A DNA stretch of 64,000 bases, from contig JASJAO010000015.1 of NCBI GenBank assembly GCA_030066975.1, positions 1 through 64,000 of the forward strand, read 5' to 3'. The notes under the pieces were generated by a model. It did not search any database and was not told the origin of the DNA. It saw only the letters and a program-made list of their open reading frames with translations. The translations under genes and the position numbers were made by a program. The DNA is from Henriciella sp. GTDB lineage: Bacteria; Pseudomonadota; Alphaproteobacteria; Caulobacterales; Hyphomonadaceae. Shown one piece after another: positions 16,786 through 23,466 of the stretch; position 1 is the stretch's first letter; every line of letters starts with the position of its first letter.

Positions 16786-17583
16786 ATGTTGAACCATCCC
16801 GACAACTGGACGTCTTTGCTGCCTCGCCCATCGGAGGAGGGACACAAATATCATCGCGGGCATGCGGTGATCGTCGGGGCAACAGAATTGACCGGTGCAA
16901 CCCGGCTCGCGGCGGCGGCCTCTTCTCGCGTCGGTGCAGGACTGGTCAGCGTCCTGTCCGACGAGGCCGCGGACATTTATCGCATGACCTTGCCAGCCGA
17001 CATCATGGTGAAGGGGCTGGAGACGATGTCTGCAGCGCGGGTGTCGGCTGTGCTTGCCGGCAGTGGAGGGATATCAGAGCGAGGGCGGGCTGCCTTGTTG
17101 CAGGCCCCGCTTGACCGACCTCTTGTCCTGGATGCAGAGGCCATCGCGTTGCATCAGGATCTGGCGGCCGAGAGCCTCGTCCTAACGCCTCACGACGGGG
17201 AGTTTGCCCGCGCGTTTCCGGATTTGTCAGGTGAGCGCCTCGGCAATGCATGTGCTGCTGCGAAACATTCCGGCGCTGTGATTGTGTTGAAGGGAGCGGA
17301 GACGATTGTCGCCGAGCCGGGTGGGCGACACGCGATCAATCAACATGCCAGCCCCTATCTCGCTAAGGCTGGCACTGGCGATGTCCTGGCCGGTTTGATC
17401 ACGGGTCTAGTTGCGCAGGGCATGCCGTGTTTCGAGGCGGCGCAGGCGGCGGTCTGGATGCATGGCGAAGCGTCTCTGAGAATCGGTGCGGGTCTGATCG
17501 CGCAAGATCTGATCTCTGAAATGCGCGGCGTTCTGCACGATCTGTTAAACCCGGCGGATCGCCGAGACGGGGCTATCGAGTAG
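16786..17583 (+). CDS. nnrD: ADP/ATP-dependent NAD(P)H-hydrate dehydratase (stand-alone NnrD domain)
   Basis: 265 residues. It has the CARKD/ribokinase-like fold signatures GHKYHRGHAVIVG, LVLTPHDGEFARAFP, and the nucleotide-binding/catalytic AKAGTGDVLAGLITGLVAQG near residue 195. It repairs hydrated NADH/NADPH (S-NADHX). In many bacteria it is fused to the NnrE epimerase; here the epimerase half is absent and not seen elsewhere in the window. A repeat copy lies immediately upstream. Its 3' end overlaps the convergent gene at 17545 by 39 bases. Confidence 0.87.
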   Translation: MLNHPDNWTSLLPRPSEEGHKYHRGHAVIVGATELTGATRLAAAASSRVGAGLVSVLSDEAADIYRMTLPADIMVKGLETMSAARVSAVLAGSGGISERGRAALLQAPLDRPLVLDAEAIALHQDLAAESLVLTPHDGEFARAFPDLSGERLGNACAAAKHSGAVIVLKGAETIVAEPGGRHAINQHASPYLAKAGTGDVLAGLITGLVAQGMPCFEAAQAAVWMHGEASLRIGAGLIAQDLISEMRGVLHDLLNPADRRDGAIE

Positions 17584-18294
17584 GAACAACGGCCCCTGGC
17601 GTTGAAGCGTTCCTGCGATCTCAACCGGATCAGCGACGAACTCCAACAGGTCGCGGGAATGGGCGAGGCCGCTATCGGTCATGATCATCAGGGCTTTTTG
17701 GTCACGACGATCCTGGACATAGAAGGCTGGCGGAATGCCGCCGCGAATACAGAGACTGGCACAGGCTTTATGGACTTTGCCCTGATTGGGGCTCATCGCG
17801 CCGAACCAGCATTTACTGTCGAGGATCTCGCCTCTCAGAGTAACCTCGCCAAGCGTTTCGAGATCTGGCAAGGGAGCCGCGGCATCGGTCGTGTCCTCAT
17901 CTGCCCGGATCCAGTCCATCCCGTCGACGACCGCGATCATCTTGTACGGTCCGCGCTCGATGAGAGAGCCTTTGACGATCACGGGCGTGCCTGCATGCGA
18001 GCCAATGCGGGCGCTGACGCCGCATTTTCCCTGACAGCCGAGCAGGGCAAAGTCTGGCGGGTCATCGGCGGTTCCGAGGCGAAGGATCGGGTAGGGGGCT
18101 GCGCTGGCAAACCCGCGCCATTCGCGTACATCCCCCATCGCCCATGTGCCGGGCCCGGGGCGATTTTGGGCTGAAGCCACAGCCGCTGCAATCGCGCCCG
18201 TCCCGCCGAGCAAAGCGAGACCGGCGCCGAGGAAGAACCGTCTGTCCGTCCTGGGTGTGTCGGCCCAGCCGATAAAGAAGTCGTCCTGACTCAT
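17545..18294 (-). CDS. Tat-type exported or anchored protein with conserved Cys motifs, redox locus
   Basis: 249 residues. The N-terminus DRRFFLGAG followed by a hydrophobic stretch to about residue 42 resembles a twin-arginine signal or anchor. The C-terminal half has GEILDSKCWFGAMSPNQG, then KVHKACASLCIRGGIPP: a Cys/His cluster (C...HKxCAxxC) that may bind a metal or heme. An earlier CQGKCG adds two more Cys. I recognise no named family. The start overlaps the stop of the ferric-reductase-like/Rieske gene by four bases, so it is the last gene of that operon and probably works in the periplasm with it. Confidence 0.7.
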   Translation of the reverse strand: MSQDDFFIGWADTPRTDRRFFLGAGLALLGGTGAIAAAVASAQNRPGPGTWAMGDVREWRGFASAAPYPILRLGTADDPPDFALLGCQGKCGVSARIGSHAGTPVIVKGSLIERGPYKMIAVVDGMDWIRADEDTTDAAAPLPDLETLGEVTLRGEILDSKCWFGAMSPNQGKVHKACASLCIRGGIPPAFYVQDRRDQKALMIMTDSGLAHSRDLLEFVADPVEIAGTLQRQGPLFLLDSPVSAIRRV

Positions 18295-19337
18295 GCTGGG
18301 TCTACAATCAGGCTGGGCGGTTGCGGCGTGCCGGGCGCGTTCGGCTCTGGGTTCACATAGACGGTGGCATCGATAATTCGGGTGGCGTAGGTCGCGATCT
18401 TTTCCGTGAAAGGCGGCGGCGATTGGCCGTCTTCCATACGGTATTGGAAGCCGTGCCAGGGGCAGGTGATGCAGCCGTCGACAATCTTGCCTTCGCCCAG
18501 CGGTCCACCTTGATGGCGGCAGACATTGGAGACGGCTGAGATCGTGTTGCCGTCCCGGAAGATGGCGATCGCTTCACCGTATTTCGGGCGGACGATCTTT
18601 GCGCGGCCGTCTTGCATGTCGGTCAGATCCGCAACTTTCAGCCAGCCTTCGTGCTCGGTTCGGTGGGCGGGGCGCAAGCTCGCAAGGCCGGTGAAGAGAT
18701 GCAGCCCGATTACTGTGACAGACCCGGCGCAAAGCAAGGTCACATAAAGTGGGTGGCGCTCAAACTGGATGGCGCCGAGAGCAATGTGGGCGATCAACAG
18801 CGCGTAGGCGACGTAGACGCCCATATGCAGTGCCTTCCACAGGCCAGGCCCTAGATTGGCGTTCCAGAAATCATGACTGGTCGCGGCCATCAGAAATAGA
18901 ATGATCAGCGCGATCAGACCCAGGCTTTCAAACGGAAAACCGGAGATGGAGTCGTAGCGCGGATTGGAGATCAGGAGCGAGACGAAGGGATTGGTTTCCG
19001 AAAAGCCGTGATACCAGAGCGTCACGAGCGCAGCATGCAGCAGAGCGATCAGGAAAGTCGTCACGCCAAGATGGCGGCGATTGTAGAGAAACGGCTTGAA
19101 GCGATCTGTGAGGCGCGCAAGCGGGCCGATACAGAGAATGAAGGTCAGCAGCAGGAAGGCGAGTGTGCCGAGCGCCCGGATCAGGATCTGGACCGGTGCG
19201 AAGGCTTCACCTGCCGGTTGGGCCACCGCGCTGATTGCAACAAATACAACCAGGTAGAGCGTGATGCCGCCGAGCATCCAGAGATCGAACCGGGTCTTGA
19301 ACGGGGTCCATTGCACGGCTTTGTAATCATGCGCCAT
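18291..19337 (-). CDS. Ferric-reductase-like membrane heme protein fused to a Rieske [2Fe-2S] domain
   Basis: 348 residues. Six or so hydrophobic segments span about residues 20-235. Histidines in LLHAALVTLWYHGF and LWKALHMGVYVAYALLIAHI are the likely heme ligands of a ferric reductase/NOX-like b-type cytochrome domain. The C-terminal 100 residues are a Rieske domain with C273, H275 and C292, H295 (CRHQGGPLGEG ... CPWHGFQY). A Rieske domain after a ferric-reductase-like membrane domain suggests transmembrane electron transfer. It sits fourth in the operon, overlapping neighbours on both sides. Confidence 0.8.
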   Translation of the reverse strand: MAHDYKAVQWTPFKTRFDLWMLGGITLYLVVFVAISAVAQPAGEAFAPVQILIRALGTLAFLLLTFILCIGPLARLTDRFKPFLYNRRHLGVTTFLIALLHAALVTLWYHGFSETNPFVSLLISNPRYDSISGFPFESLGLIALIILFLMAATSHDFWNANLGPGLWKALHMGVYVAYALLIAHIALGAIQFERHPLYVTLLCAGSVTVIGLHLFTGLASLRPAHRTEHEGWLKVADLTDMQDGRAKIVRPKYGEAIAIFRDGNTISAVSNVCRHQGGPLGEGKIVDGCITCPWHGFQYRMEDGQSPPPFTEKIATYATRIIDATVYVNPEPNAPGTPQPPSLIVDPA

Positions 19338-19486
19338 TACCTGGCCTCCTCGAGCAAGACGGTCGGCAATTCGTCATTCACCGGTTCGGCCGGGCGATAC
19401 ATGACCGCGATCAGGAGGGTGGCGATCATGACGGGTCCGAGCACCAGCCACATCACTAAATGCGTTTTTCGGTGGGCGCGTTTCAT
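19337..19486 (-). CDS. 49-residue single-span membrane protein
   Basis: From ATG 19486, which overlaps the stop of the upstream gene by ATGA; the longer open frame start is unlikely. A basic N-terminus (KRAHRKTH) is followed by one membrane segment (about residues 11-27) and a short acidic tail. No family is recognised. It is embedded in the redox operon with overlapping starts and stops on both sides, which supports it being real and a subunit or assembly factor. Confidence 0.65.
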   Translation of the reverse strand: MKRAHRKTHLVMWLVLGPVMIATLLIAVMYRPAEPVNDELPTVLLEEAR

Positions 19487-19713
19487 GACACCGGTGGCTC
19501 CTTCTGGGTGAAGAGCTTGGTGAGCATGAGGGGCCACAGGCCGATCACACCGGGAAGAATGAGCAAGCGCGCTTGCAAGGGCAGGCCTTTGCCTCGAGCG
19601 GCGGGGTCAATGCGTCCGGCACCTTCGAAGGCGAACACCAGCGCGACCAGGAGCCCGATCAGAAGATAGACGCCCATCGCGGTGACAATCAGGTTGGCGA
19701 GGGGCTCACTCAT
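19483..19713 (-). CDS. 76-residue membrane protein, redox locus
   Basis: From ATG 19713, overlapping the stop of the FMN protein gene by ATGA. It has two hydrophobic segments (about 5-28 and 44-64) joined by a Gly/Arg-containing loop; the second contains RLLILPGVIGLWPLML. The family is unrecognised. Given its location between soluble and membrane redox proteins, it may be a small membrane anchor or subunit. Confidence 0.68.
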   Translation of the reverse strand: MSEPLANLIVTAMGVYLLIGLLVALVFAFEGAGRIDPAARGKGLPLQARLLILPGVIGLWPLMLTKLFTQKEPPVS

Positions 19714-21326
19714 CGACCCACCCCTGCATAGGTGATCCCGGCAAGGTCGGACATGTCCCGGCTGAATGTAACCAGGTCTTCTATGTTGAAGTCCGACAGG
19801 CTGTGATGCCCGCAAGCGCGCGCCATGACTTTCATCAGCTCTGTCGACGCCTCGAAGAAATTTTTCAGCCGCTCTGCCGATGGTTCAACCAGAAGCCTTG
19901 AAACAAGATGCGGCTTTTGCGTCGCGATGCCGACCGGGCAGTTATTGGTGTGGCAGGCCCGCATGGCCACACATCCGATCGCCTGCATCGCGGCATTGGA
20001 GACGGCAATCGCGTCAGCGCCCATGGCGAGGGCTTTCACAAAGTCTGCCGGTTTGCGCAAGCCGCCTGTGATGACGAGCGAGACGTCGTTTCGGCCGAGG
20101 CGGTCGAGGTGGCGCCGGGCGCGGGCAAGGGCCGGAATGGTCGGCACAGAGATATTGTCGCGGAAGATGATCGGCGCGGCCCCCGTGCCCCCGCCGCGGC
20201 CATCAAGGATAATATAATCGACCCCAACCAGCAGCGCGGCATCGATGTCTTTCTCAATATGCTGCGCCGAGAGCTTGTAGCCGATCGGGATACCGCCGGT
20301 TCGCTCGCGCACCTCGTCTGCGAAGTCCCTGACCTGGAGGCAGTTGGTCCAGTCCGGAAAGCGTGGAGGGGAGATAGCCGCTTCGCCTTCGGTCAGGCCG
20401 CGGACTTCGGCGATTTTGCCCTTCACTTTGTTGCCGGGGAGGTGACCGCCGGTGCCAGTCTTCGCCCCTTGCCCCCCCTTGAAGTGGAAGGCCTGAACCT
20501 TGTCGAGCTTGTCCCATGAGAAGCCAAACCGCCCGGAGGCCAGTTCGTAGAAGTATTTTGAGCAAGCTTCCTGTTCTTCCGGCAACATGCCGCCTTCGCC
20601 GGAACAGATGCCAGTGCCCGCGAGTTCAGCGCCGCGGGCGAGCGCGACTTTGGCGGTTTCAGACAACGCGCCAAAACTCATATCAGACACAAAGAGCGGG
20701 ATATTGAGCTTGAGAGGTTTGTTCGCCTTCGGGCCGATGGTGACGGAGGCGTCCACCGGCTCGTCATCCAGCAGCGGCATTCTGCTGAGCTGCGCCGTGA
20801 TCATCTGGATGTCGTCCCAGTCTGGCAGCTGGTCTCGCGGGACGCCCATGGACGCGGTGATGCCGTGATGTCCCGTTTTGGAGAGGCCATCGCGGGCATA
20901 TTGCTGGATCAGCTTATTGTGCGGCTCGGGATGGGCCTCGTGGCTCGGGTCCTGGTAGAGGCCGAGATATTCGTCGCGATTGTAGGGCTGTGGATTGTCT
21001 TTGGCCCAGGCGGCGATTTCGTCGGAGTCGACGAGCACCTGGTCACTCTCGATCCAGGCCGAGAATTTCGGCAGTTTTTCTGAATTTTCATACTCAGACA
21101 CGCCGGTGTCGAGGCGGTAGTCCCAATTGTGGACGCCGCAGATCAGATTGTCATTGGCGTCAACATGGCCATCGGCCATGAGAGCGCCGCGGTGAAGACA
21201 GCGACCATACATGACGGAGACCTGATCATCAAAGCGCACAACCACGAGATCTACCTCACCCACCAAGGCATAAGCGGGTTGCCGGTCCTCAAGCTTTGAC
21301 CAGGTTGCGACACGTATCTTGTTCAT
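19710..21326 (-). CDS. Rieske domain fused to FMN-binding glutamate-synthase-like domain
   Basis: 538 residues from ATG 21326, with GGGGAAA upstream; the open frame extends 74 codons further, but that part is atypical. The N-terminal 110 residues are a Rieske domain (CLHRG ... CGVHNWDY). The rest matches the FMN domain of glutamate synthase, with SDMSFGALSETAKVALARGA, GGQGAKTGTGGHLPG, DGRGGGTGAAP, and a C-x5-C-x4-C pattern at C452, C458 and C463 (ACHTNNCPVGIATQ) for the [3Fe-4S] cluster. The glutaminase domain is absent, so it is unlikely to be a true GOGAT. It heads a five-gene operon and is divergent from the Rieske-TPP gene across 148 bases. Substrate unknown. Confidence 0.82.
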   Translation of the reverse strand: MNKIRVATWSKLEDRQPAYALVGEVDLVVVRFDDQVSVMYGRCLHRGALMADGHVDANDNLICGVHNWDYRLDTGVSEYENSEKLPKFSAWIESDQVLVDSDEIAAWAKDNPQPYNRDEYLGLYQDPSHEAHPEPHNKLIQQYARDGLSKTGHHGITASMGVPRDQLPDWDDIQMITAQLSRMPLLDDEPVDASVTIGPKANKPLKLNIPLFVSDMSFGALSETAKVALARGAELAGTGICSGEGGMLPEEQEACSKYFYELASGRFGFSWDKLDKVQAFHFKGGQGAKTGTGGHLPGNKVKGKIAEVRGLTEGEAAISPPRFPDWTNCLQVRDFADEVRERTGGIPIGYKLSAQHIEKDIDAALLVGVDYIILDGRGGGTGAAPIIFRDNISVPTIPALARARRHLDRLGRNDVSLVITGGLRKPADFVKALAMGADAIAVSNAAMQAIGCVAMRACHTNNCPVGIATQKPHLVSRLLVEPSAERLKNFFEASTELMKVMARACGHHSLSDFNIEDLVTFSRDMSDLAGITYAGVGR

Positions 21327-21474
21327 GGTTTCCCCGCTCTTTGCTGATCGCTGCATAGGCGAGCCAGCTGTATCGACGCCAATCACGCGTCCTGACAAAT
21401 ATATGAACGCTTGTGAGGTGCCTGTGCAACATGCTTTGGTTAGAGCGACCGCCGAGAACGCATGAGGAGGGCAC

Positions 21475-23466
21475 ATGTCCGAGGGAAAAACCACACTGAT
21501 TTGGCACAAAGTCGCCACGACAAATGAGGTCGAAGACGGTCGGGTCAAATCGGTGACGGCTGGAGCGCAATCGATTGCACTGGTGCATTTCAGAGGCGAA
21601 TGGGCGGCGATGGATAATAAGTGTCCACATCAGGGTGGACCGCTGGGCGAAGGGTCGATTGAGGAAGGCGTTGATGATCAGTGCTGGTTGCGCTGTCCCT
21701 GGCATGGCTGGGATTTCGATCCGCTGACCGGGAAGCCGCCGGGCGGGCATGAGGATACCGGCCAGGAGATGTTTGAGGTCGACATAAGGGGCGACGATGT
21801 CTTTGTTGGTGTCCCCGAACTCCCGGCGCGCGATCGGTCTGTGGCTGATGTGATGGCAGAGACGATGGTGAACTGGGGGGTCACGTCCGTGTTCGGCATG
21901 GTAGGGCATTCCAATCTTGGGCTCGCCGACGCCTTTCGGGTGCAGGAGAGCGAAGGCAAACTCACCTATTACGGTATTCGCCATGAAGGCGCGGCCGCCT
22001 TTGCGATCTCCGGGTATGGCAAACTGACAGGGCATCCGGCAGCCGCGCTGACCATTGCCGGGCCTGGGGCGACCAATCTTCTGACCGGCTTATGGGATGC
22101 CAAGGTCGATAATGCCCCGGCACTCGCTCTTACAGGGCAGGTTCAGGACCAGGTGGTCGGGGTGCATGCGTTTCAGGACATTGATCTGGAGGCTGCGTTC
22201 GAGGCTGTGGCGGAGTTTTCTGAAACGGTGCATACCCATTCGGATCATGCCTTGCTGATGACCCAGGCGATCAAGACAGCGATCTTGAAGCGTGGGGTTG
22301 GGCATCTGGTCTTTCCGGATAATGTACAGCCGCAAAAGGCGGCAGAGGGGGCGAAAGTGCAAAGCCCCGCTGGCCGAATGGCGAATCTGCGGGTCGGACC
22401 CCCCGCAGAGGCGCTCGACGAAGCTGTAACGCTCTTATCCGGAGCCAAGCGTCCCATGATCATTGTCGGCTATGGTGCGCTTGAGGGCATGGGCAGTGTG
22501 ATCGAATTGGCTGAACGGCTGAATGCACCGATCGCGACCACTTTTAAAGCCAAGGGGCAGATCGCCGATGCGCACCCGCTGGCTGCCGGGGTGATGGGTC
22601 GGTCGGGAACACCGATCGCGAGTTGGTTTATGAATGAAGCCGATTTGCTTCTGGTGTTTGGGGCGTCCTTCTCGGATCATACCGGGATTTATGAGGGCAC
22701 GCCGACCATCCAAGTGGATACGGATTCGATGCGGCTCGCCAAGCGTCATCCGGTAACCGTGCCGGTTATGGGAGATGTTGCGGTTACCGCTGAGCGGATG
22801 GCCGCGGGCCTCGCCAAAGGGCAGGCCGCGATCAATCTTCGCGACGAGATCGCCGAACGCTGGCGGCTGTGGCGTGCTGAAAAAGCGACGCGGGTTCTGG
22901 AAGACAATGGCAATGGTGTTTCCGCGGCGGCTTTGTTTGAAGCGCTGACCCGGCAGGCTCCGAAAGATGCGATCCTGCCGGTTGATGTCGGCAACAACAC
23001 CTATTCCTTCGGTCGATACTTCGAACCAACCGGACAGCAACGCGTCCTGATGTCAGGGTATCTCGGCTCTATCGGCTTTAGCTTTCCTGCCGCGATGGGG
23101 GCTTGGGCCGCGACGCAGGAAGAGGGGCCTTACAAAGGACGAAAAGTGATTTCAGTCTCTGGCGATGGTGGCTTTGGTCAGTATGCGATGGAGTTCACCA
23201 CGGCTGTCAAATACGGAATGAACATCACCCATGTGCTGATGAACAATTCCGAGCTCGGCAAGATCACCAAGGAACAGAAAGCCGCAGAGCTGGCCGTTTG
23301 GCAGACCAGTCTCGTCAATCCGAGCTTTGCGGGATTTGCCCGCAGCTGCGGCGGCATGGGTGAGCTGGTCAAGACACGCGACCAGCTTGATGACGCGCTG
23401 GCGAAAGCGATCGCACATAATGGCCCGTCTTTGATTGAGGTGATCACGGATCCGGAACTGCTTTAG
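21475..23466 (+). CDS. Rieske domain fused to TPP-dependent (pyruvate oxidase/acetolactate synthase-like) enzyme
   Basis: 663 residues; the start has GAGGAGG five bases upstream. Residues 1-115 are a Rieske domain with C50, H52, C74 and H77. Residues 120-663 are a complete TPP enzyme: the Pyr domain with the activating Glu in YGIRHEGAAAFA, a central domain with FKAKGQIADAHPLAAGVMG, and the PP domain with GDGGFGQYAMEF and NN about 25 residues on. TPP enzymes with built-in Rieske clusters are rare; the cluster probably accepts electrons from the carbanion intermediate, as FAD or ferredoxin do elsewhere. It is divergently transcribed from the Rieske-FMN operon, which implies a shared pathway. 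The keto-acid substrate cannot be told from sequence. Confidence 0.82.
   Translation: MSEGKTTLIWHKVATTNEVEDGRVKSVTAGAQSIALVHFRGEWAAMDNKCPHQGGPLGEGSIEEGVDDQCWLRCPWHGWDFDPLTGKPPGGHEDTGQEMFEVDIRGDDVFVGVPELPARDRSVADVMAETMVNWGVTSVFGMVGHSNLGLADAFRVQESEGKLTYYGIRHEGAAAFAISGYGKLTGHPAAALTIAGPGATNLLTGLWDAKVDNAPALALTGQVQDQVVGVHAFQDIDLEAAFEAVAEFSETVHTHSDHALLMTQAIKTAILKRGVGHLVFPDNVQPQKAAEGAKVQSPAGRMANLRVGPPAEALDEAVTLLSGAKRPMIIVGYGALEGMGSVIELAERLNAPIATTFKAKGQIADAHPLAAGVMGRSGTPIASWFMNEADLLLVFGASFSDHTGIYEGTPTIQVDTDSMRLAKRHPVTVPVMGDVAVTAERMAAGLAKGQAAINLRDEIAERWRLWRAEKATRVLEDNGNGVSAAALFEALTRQAPKDAILPVDVGNNTYSFGRYFEPTGQQRVLMSGYLGSIGFSFPAAMGAWAATQEEGPYKGRKVISVSGDGGFGQYAMEFTTAVKYGMNITHVLMNNSELGKITKEQKAAELAVWQTSLVNPSFAGFARSCGGMGELVKTRDQLDDALAKAIAHNGPSLIEVITDPELL

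Follow-up and report, generated by a model that had tools for sequence, protein, structure and literature searches.

Among the domains joined to the ferric-reductase-like domain (FRD), Rieske is named in the consulted parts of PMC3591440, where YedZ is described with an Arg in place of the first canonical His and with probably only the surface-proximal heme bound. CDGSH is named together with Glu_synthase and with Rieske in the consulted parts of PMC5859297. In contrast to what is described here, these parts of the two surveys mention neither a Rieske-TPP fusion nor a Rieske-Glu_synthase fusion nor a gene linkage, and the terms 'thiamine' and 'TPP' have 0 occurrences in PMC5859297. The locus in question lies within the window, the whole stretch of 64,000 nucleotides from Henriciella sp. 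that was analysed (GenBank assembly GCA_030066975.1, contig JASJAO010000015.1, positions 1 to 64,000). It occupies positions 17545-23466 and encodes a thiamine diphosphate (ThDP) enzyme (TPP-RSK), a glutamate-synthase-like enzyme (GLT-RSK) and a ferric-reductase-like membrane protein (FRD-RSK), each fused to a Rieske domain, as well as two tiny membrane proteins (SMP1 and SMP2) and a Cys/His protein (TAT). Judged by sequence comparison, the catalytic parts are all divergent relatives of known families. The literature covered, which consisted mostly of titles and abstracts and left out most subscription journals, yielded no description of the TPP-Rieske enzyme, the fusion pair or the whole set.

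TPP-RSK and GLT-RSK probably belong to a single, previously undescribed system for sharing electrons, since both enzymes often travel together across many bacteria and some haloarchaea. The reading favoured here, which is held tentatively, is that the core of this system is the enzyme pair, sharing electrons via matching Rieske domains, with a membrane module as an optional branch. TPP-RSK would use ThDP, and probably FAD, to decarboxylate and oxidise a 2-oxo acid, and the electrons from this chemistry would pass to its own Rieske cluster. GLT-RSK, carrying FMN, a [3Fe-4S] cluster and a Rieske cluster, would exchange electrons via the latter and perform a conversion of the type that turns a 2-oxo or imino acid into an amino acid, most likely in the reductive direction and with TPP-RSK as the driving partner. 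In the membrane branch, electrons would move between the pair and the periplasmic protein TAT by way of the cytosolic Rieske domain of FRD-RSK and heme b, so that the branch would act as an electron outlet or inlet, with SMP1 and SMP2 as its small subunits. The cofactors, physical contact, substrates and electron direction of this model are inferred from sequence.

A scan of named genomes in a species-level collection found at least 571 TPP-RSK relatives (E <= 1e-3) among 586 candidate stretches, of which the best 80, all with at least 60% identity, were examined. This choice gives too little weight to distant members and too much to relatives of the window. The 80 loci stem from Alphaproteobacteria, Gammaproteobacteria and metagenome-assembled genomes (MAGs) named Nitrospirales, Nitrospinaceae, Polyangia, Acidobacteriota, Gemmatimonadetes and Thermoleophilia. 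Many of the surveyed genomes are draft MAGs, and the one titled Thermoleophilia (L175) is placed within Gammaproteobacteria by the tree, possibly because of a binning error. Neighbouring open reading frames (ORFs) were called mechanically in flanks of 10 kb, and because contigs often end inside this flank, all absences of neighbours are upper bounds. Of the best 80 loci, 44 contain GLT-RSK of the Rieske type (at least 63% identity) at a distance of no more than 10 kb from TPP-RSK, and 14 of the other 36 genomes encode it outside the fetched stretch (truncated or in pieces in two of them), giving 58 of 80 TPP-RSK genomes with GLT-RSK. One further locus, L205, has a GLT homologue with CDGSH in place of Rieske next to TPP-RSK, and L215 has a distant homologue. 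As TPP-RSK has no more constant partner than GLT-RSK, the two enzymes, both of which are predicted to be soluble, may pass electrons to each other. Other neighbours are FRD-RSK (31 loci), TAT (31), SMP2 (25), a cation/H+ antiporter (23), SMP1 (10) and a DUF1622 protein (10). A full-length FRD-RSK was found elsewhere in 9 of the 32 genomes searched for it among the 49 without an adjacent copy (in two pieces in one of them), and was not found in the remaining 23. The membrane branch thus occurs in at least 40 of the 80 genomes. Since the module occurs without the enzymes and the enzymes without the module, the pair appears to be the more constant core and the membrane part optional. On a FastTree phylogeny of TPP-RSK, in which 27 of 83 inner branches are open, at least 22 changes of adjacency were counted for GLT-RSK, at least 15 for FRD-RSK and at least 17 for the antiporter (two plasmid records included by annotation), numbers that are inflated because loci on short contigs were coded as absent. 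Linkage to TPP-RSK has clearly been made or broken repeatedly.

A similar picture emerges closer to the window, whose nearest named records belong to Henriciella and other Hyphomonadaceae. All six genes occur in identical divergent order in 10 relatives: L072-L079, which stand for seven genomes of the genus plus one other genus of the family, and L081 and L082 from two genomes of another family of the order. In L083 and L084, the minus-strand genes are present and the loci end at contig ends. Within the genus, 12 of 29 genomes, including that of the window, encode TPP-RSK (partial or in pieces in three), and the six-gene set is therefore accessory and patchy in the genus. Among 289 genomes of the class, TPP-RSK (counted at 1e-100) was found in 13, GLT-RSK in 8 and full-length TAT in 14. 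Any match to TAT was found in 21 genomes, 7 of which have only the short C-terminal part, and any match to GLT-RSK at 1e-60 in 60, mostly to other glutamate-synthase-like proteins. All three markers are present in seven genomes, including that of the window, while TAT occurs without the other two in 7, TPP-RSK in 6 and GLT-RSK in 1. Co-occurrence was significant by Fisher tests for TPP/GLT (4e-10), TPP/TAT (2e-7) and GLT/TAT (9e-10), and values of 6e-6, 2e-4 and 1e-5, respectively, were obtained without the window genome and with some kin collapsed, a correction that accounts for kinship only partly. The linkage of the six genes that an earlier note on this stretch had proposed to check in relatives is kept in many of them, but in G069, G182, G202 and G285 the genes co-occur without being adjacent, and in G020 (locus L080) TPP-RSK stands alone in 18 kb. 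A chance assembly of unrelated genes is ruled out by the linkage in 10 relatives and in 44 of 80 loci and by the co-occurrence.

A plasmid collection yielded five TPP-RSK copies with 51-61% identity, four from haloarchaea and one from a Mycobacteroides abscessus record, and all five keep the Rieske ligands and the LGKI motif. GLT-RSK is also encoded on three of the four haloarchaeal plasmids, 1.4 kb on from TPP-RSK in Salinirubellus, about 17 kb away in Halorubrum and 4 kb on in Halorarius, where TPP-RSK is followed by genes for a Na+/H+ antiporter and a K+ channel. A cation:proton antiporter is annotated near the mycobacterial copy. The plasmid copies bear no more than the labels 'thiamine pyrophosphate-binding protein' and 'glutamate synthase-related protein', yet TPP-RSK relatives are encoded in at least 571 stretches, and both enzymes are found on haloarchaeal plasmids. 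As a side observation, the genes around TPP-RSK on the haloarchaeal plasmids (L263, L264, L265, L266) include ones with annotations for redox, sulfur and metal resistance.

Table 1. Genes and sequence elements of the locus (window positions) and extended ThDP enzymes found in other loci (positions in the respective locus).
Feature	Position	Strand	Description
TAT	17545..18294	-	Membrane-anchored, presumably periplasmic; motif Asp-x-Lys-Cys..His-x2-Cys-x3-Cys
FRD-RSK	18291..19337	-	YedZ/MsrQ-like ferric-reductase heme-b domain with six transmembrane helices and C-terminal predicted cytosolic Rieske domain (Pfam, alignment)
SMP1	19337..19486	-	49 aa, single transmembrane segment
SMP2	19483..19713	-	76 aa, two hydrophobic segments
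GLT-RSK	19710..21326	-	N-terminal Rieske and FMN/[3Fe-4S] glutamate-synthase domain, no glutaminase domain
Octamer CCAATCAC	21379..21386		Within the divergent spacer
TPP-RSK	21475..23466	+	N-terminal Rieske and pyruvate-oxidase-like ThDP enzyme, hallmark LGKI-x2-EQ
Extended ThDP enzyme	L134:7557-10190		CDGSH motifs ahead of the TPP domains
Extended ThDP enzyme	L135:7488-10148		CDGSH motifs ahead of the TPP domains
Extended ThDP enzyme	L136:7941-10718		CDGSH motifs ahead of the TPP domains

The gene coordinates (Table 1) bear out the two tiny membrane proteins, the gene overlaps and the 148-base divergent gap described in the earlier note. Successive overlaps in the minus-strand run from GLT-RSK over SMP2, SMP1 and FRD-RSK to TAT amount to 4, 4, 1 and 4 nt. 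The three different Rieske fusions reported there within six kilobases were recovered by Pfam, which places Rieske together with Glu_synthase, Ferric_reduct and TPP_enzyme domains, and the CxH...CxxH ligand pattern is present with all four ligands in each of the three proteins. The description of the sixth protein as a Tat protein with a Cys motif fared less well. The residues C162..H175..C178..C182 are invariant, but its first Cys pair (CQGKC in the window) is not conserved, and a twin-Arg signal is found in the window and some relatives, while others have an ordinary N-terminal membrane anchor, so that it is not a feature of the family.

TPP-RSK contains a Rieske domain (5.7e-17) and three TPP_enzyme domains (4.7e-33, 1.7e-32 and 5.7e-29). 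Its Rieske ligands C50, H52, C74 and H77 are each present in 85 of 86 aligned rows, with one gap, and the ThDP motif and the catalytic Glu (Glu171) are conserved in the alignment. The closest known enzymes are pyruvate oxidase and PoxB: the best NCBIfam match is PRK08611 (386.9 bits, below the cut-off of 742), and the PDB matches include 3eya PoxB (2e-55) and 1y9d pyruvate oxidase (2.7e-52). However, TPP-RSK falls below the cut-off in all 25 NCBIfam families shown of 58, and differs from both enzymes by its N-terminal Rieske domain, which is preceded by CDGSH and Fer4_19 domains in L134. Furthermore, Lys596 is found in 86 of 86 rows where the aligned PoxB and pyruvate oxidases have Phe. We take this position to be that of the relay Phe of pyruvate oxidase next to ThDP and FAD, presumably F479. 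TPP-RSK seems unlikely to be a mere acetohydroxyacid synthase, because another PF00205 protein of IlvB length is encoded in the window genome, an assignment by family and length only. Such a protein was also found in G189 and G290 (frames of 609-623 aa in the three genomes), while G063 is an exception, with TPP-RSK as its only PF00205 protein above the cut-off.

GLT-RSK combines Rieske (7.4e-12) and Glu_synthase (1e-90) domains. The ligands C43, H45, C63 and H66 are present in 45, 44, 45 and 46 of 48 rows, respectively, and the misses are gaps in L165, L170, L220 and L205, whose GLT homologue has its best match to the CDGSH type, and one Asp at C63. The likeness to GltB extends to the [3Fe-4S] cluster residues C452, C458 and C463, each found in 47 of 48 rows with one gap. 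In contrast to GltB with its approximately 1500 residues, GLT-RSK has 538 aa, and its N-terminal part consists of Rieske and a linker where GltB has the glutaminase. It also reads QGAKTGTGGHLPG where GltB has QGAKPGEGGQLPG, so that the loop Gly-Glu-Gly-Gly of GltB becomes Gly-Thr-Gly-Gly. The amino acid/ammonia chemistry ascribed to the FMN protein by the earlier note can be seen as a family-level inference. A function as housekeeping glutamate synthase is unlikely, since the window genome also encodes a PF01645 protein of GltB length (again family and length only). With additional proteins of GltB and IlvB length in this genome, neither GLT-RSK nor TPP-RSK appears to be simply a housekeeping enzyme.

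Several observations weigh against this reading of the enzyme pair. No GLT-RSK was detected in 22 of the 80 TPP-RSK genomes, one of which has the CDGSH-type GLT next door and many of which are draft MAGs, and 6 of the 13 TPP-RSK carriers in the class survey have neither GLT-RSK nor full-length TAT. Because of the invariant Lys at the position of the relay Phe, an oxidation as in pyruvate oxidase is not assured, and because of the changed GltB loop, 2-oxoglutarate may not be a substrate of GLT-RSK. Both features together suggest that the substrates may differ from pyruvate and 2-oxoglutarate. Contact between the Rieske domains is assumed. Regarding the direction of transfer, potentials that we take to be near -150 mV for Rieske ferredoxins and near -120 mV for glutamate formation would make electron flow from TPP-RSK to GLT-RSK possible.

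A further property of both enzymes is that the Fe-S plug is exchangeable. CDGSH and Rieske are both His-ligated [2Fe-2S] types. Four close GLT homologues (53-56% identity over the whole protein, 66-68% in the catalytic part) carry CDGSH motifs in place of Rieske, and the one that was scanned contains two CDGSH domains. In three genomes of the class, the ThDP enzyme has a long extension with CDGSH motifs before Rieske (Table 1), and the scanned enzyme of L134 is organised as CDGSH-Fer4_19-CDGSH-Rieske-TPP. CDGSH and Fer4_19 domains replacing or extending the plug are as expected if the N-terminus serves as an electron inlet or outlet, i.e. as a relay. An ilvD-like gene, recognised by eye, lies directly upstream of the extended enzyme in L134 and L135, whose genomes comprise 1.8 and 1.4 Mb. 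A bolder version of the pair model, which we regard as unlikely, is a hitherto undescribed cross-domain couple in which oxidative, ThDP-dependent 2-oxo acid decarboxylation directly powers a glutaminase-free, glutamate-synthase-like reductive amination via docking Rieske/CDGSH plugs and without NAD(P)H or ferredoxin, with an optional transmembrane heme branch through which the periplasm could read or drain the couple. In favour of the pair model, no NAD(P)H:ferredoxin reductase was recognised among the neighbour clusters found in at least 6 of the 80 loci, most of which were named by eye and few by Pfam. If the pair works as proposed, keto-acid oxidation would directly drive amino-acid-type chemistry via exchangeable Fe-S plugs, a design of which we know no example. 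Even if the details are wrong, the locus provides a testable setting for the Cys/His periplasmic protein, SMP1 and SMP2, DUF5996 and DUF1622.

The membrane branch centres on FRD-RSK, which matches Ferric_reduct (2.2e-16) and Rieske (2.7e-15). Its Rieske ligands C273, H275, C292 and H295 are present in 32 of 32 rows, and together with R87, H101, H171 and H184 they are invariant in 20 of 20 rows. Six transmembrane helices are predicted, with Lys/Arg counts of 3, 5, 1 and 13 (the C-terminal domain) on the presumed cytosolic side versus 0, 1 and 1 on the opposite side. Owing to this bias of the loops, the Rieske domain is placed in the cytosol. R87, H101, H171 and H184 match the MsrQ/YedZ heme-ligand pattern given in the consulted parts of PMC3591440. 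The NCBIfam MsrQ model is matched at 1.9e-13 with 50.4 bits, under its cut-off of 130. As in MsrPQ (YedYZ), the gene partner encodes an exported or membrane-anchored protein. In contrast to MsrPQ, however, FRD-RSK has a fused cytosolic Rieske domain, the partner TAT is a Cys/His protein and no molybdoenzyme, and two tiny membrane proteins are added. The predicted topology and the ligand spacing of FRD-RSK fit transmembrane electron transfer. Thus, a path from the soluble enzymes over Rieske and heme b to a periplasmic protein is possible, given the six helices, the predicted cytosolic Rieske domain and the YedZ-type ligands.

TAT has one hydrophobic segment (residues 21-39), and its motif is found in 27 of 27 sequences, while Pfam, NCBIfam and PDB searches returned no match. 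Short relatives of its C-terminal Cys/His part have SCO1/SenC genes as neighbours in at least two loci (L069:6991-8526 and L070:8742-10350), hinting at a possible metal or thiol role of this domain in the periplasm. The small proteins are variable. In L088, a single ORF matches both SMP2 and SMP1, and in L059, L062, L063 and L065 a C-terminal extension of SMP2 takes the place of SMP1. A third hydrophobic segment was computed for SMP2 of L065, and no similarity of the four extensions to SMP1 was detected. The plasmid of Rhizobium leguminosarum WSM1689 (L269) carries the membrane module without the two enzymes, and a sigma-70 factor, an NrsF family protein and a chlorite dismutase family protein are annotated 1-4 kb downstream of it.

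Alternatively, both soluble enzymes could be dehydrogenases that feed FRD-RSK through Rieske clusters, with a keto acid and an amino acid as electron sources and the periplasm or the quinone pool as destination. The earlier note had proposed such a chain, from the TPP enzyme or the FMN protein over Rieske clusters and a membrane b-type cytochrome to the periplasmic Cys protein. The linkage of all six genes in 10 relatives, the adjacency of the module in 31 of 80 loci, the full-length FRD-RSK encoded at another place in 9 of 32 further genomes and the joint presence of the three markers in 7 of 289 class genomes are in line with this, as are the heme ligands of YedZ type and the Rieske domain with its predicted cytosolic location. 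Nevertheless, 7 of the 14 class genomes with the membrane module lack both enzymes, and 23 of the 32 searched genomes with a TPP-RSK locus without FRD-RSK yielded no full-length copy. We therefore consider this chain partly supported, though doubtful as a whole: its co-occurring components, intact ligands and suitable FRD-RSK topology stand, but it is not obligatory.

The Rieske and CDGSH domains could also be redox or oxygen sensors that gate the two ThDP and FMN enzymes under stress instead of carriers in turnover. The variable plug type and the redox, sulfur and metal-resistance annotations around the haloarchaeal copies speak for this, and clusters of an extracytoplasmic function (ECF) sigma factor and a zinc-finger anti-sigma factor, one member of each confirmed by Pfam, occur in 9 of 80 loci, suggesting stress regulation. 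However, the ThDP enzyme of L134 with its four Fe-S domains in series and the membrane cytochrome with its Rieske domain argue for electron transfer, which makes a sensory role quite unlikely. Another explanation is an ion or osmotic-stress module, in which the glutamate-type enzyme, the cation/H+ antiporter and K+ proteins tune K-glutamate and pH with TPP-RSK as redox partner. It can draw on the antiporter in 23 of 80 loci, on its at least 17 adjacency changes, a count inflated by short contigs, and on its presence in 6 loci with GLT-RSK or TPP-RSK versus 0 of the 13 loci in this set that contain the membrane module but no linked enzymes (three of them in genomes with enzymes elsewhere). The antiporters and the K+ channel next to the Halorarius and mycobacterial copies and a neighbour cluster, present in 7 of the 80 loci, whose match to TrkA_C is weak (0.012, below the cut-off) agree with it, and many carriers have marine or halophilic taxon names, although this is an uncounted impression. 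On the other hand, the antiporter was not found in 57 of 80 loci, 4 of 12 searched genomes have one, and neither the window genome nor five relatives of its genus gave a match. Hence, the antiporter is rejected as an obligatory part for Henriciella, and the ion module as a whole is improbable.

Among the remaining neighbours, a DUF1622 small membrane protein is encoded directly 3' of TPP-RSK in seven relatives. Although present in 7 of 9 searched genomes of the family, it was rejected as an obligatory part because the window genome and G020 gave no match. Unbiased clustering of the neighbouring ORFs revealed a DUF5996-like cluster in 18 of 80 loci, with one of two scanned members matching at 1.9e-38 and the other remaining below the cut-off. 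The ECF sigma and anti-sigma factor clusters are those of L161, L167, L168, L170, L177, L182, L214, L220 and L224. A sigma-70 scan found no site inside the 148-bp spacer between GLT-RSK and TPP-RSK (21327-21474). The octamer CCAATCAC within it is invariant in 9 of 9 aligned spacers (the window and 8 relatives) and is a possible promoter or regulator site.

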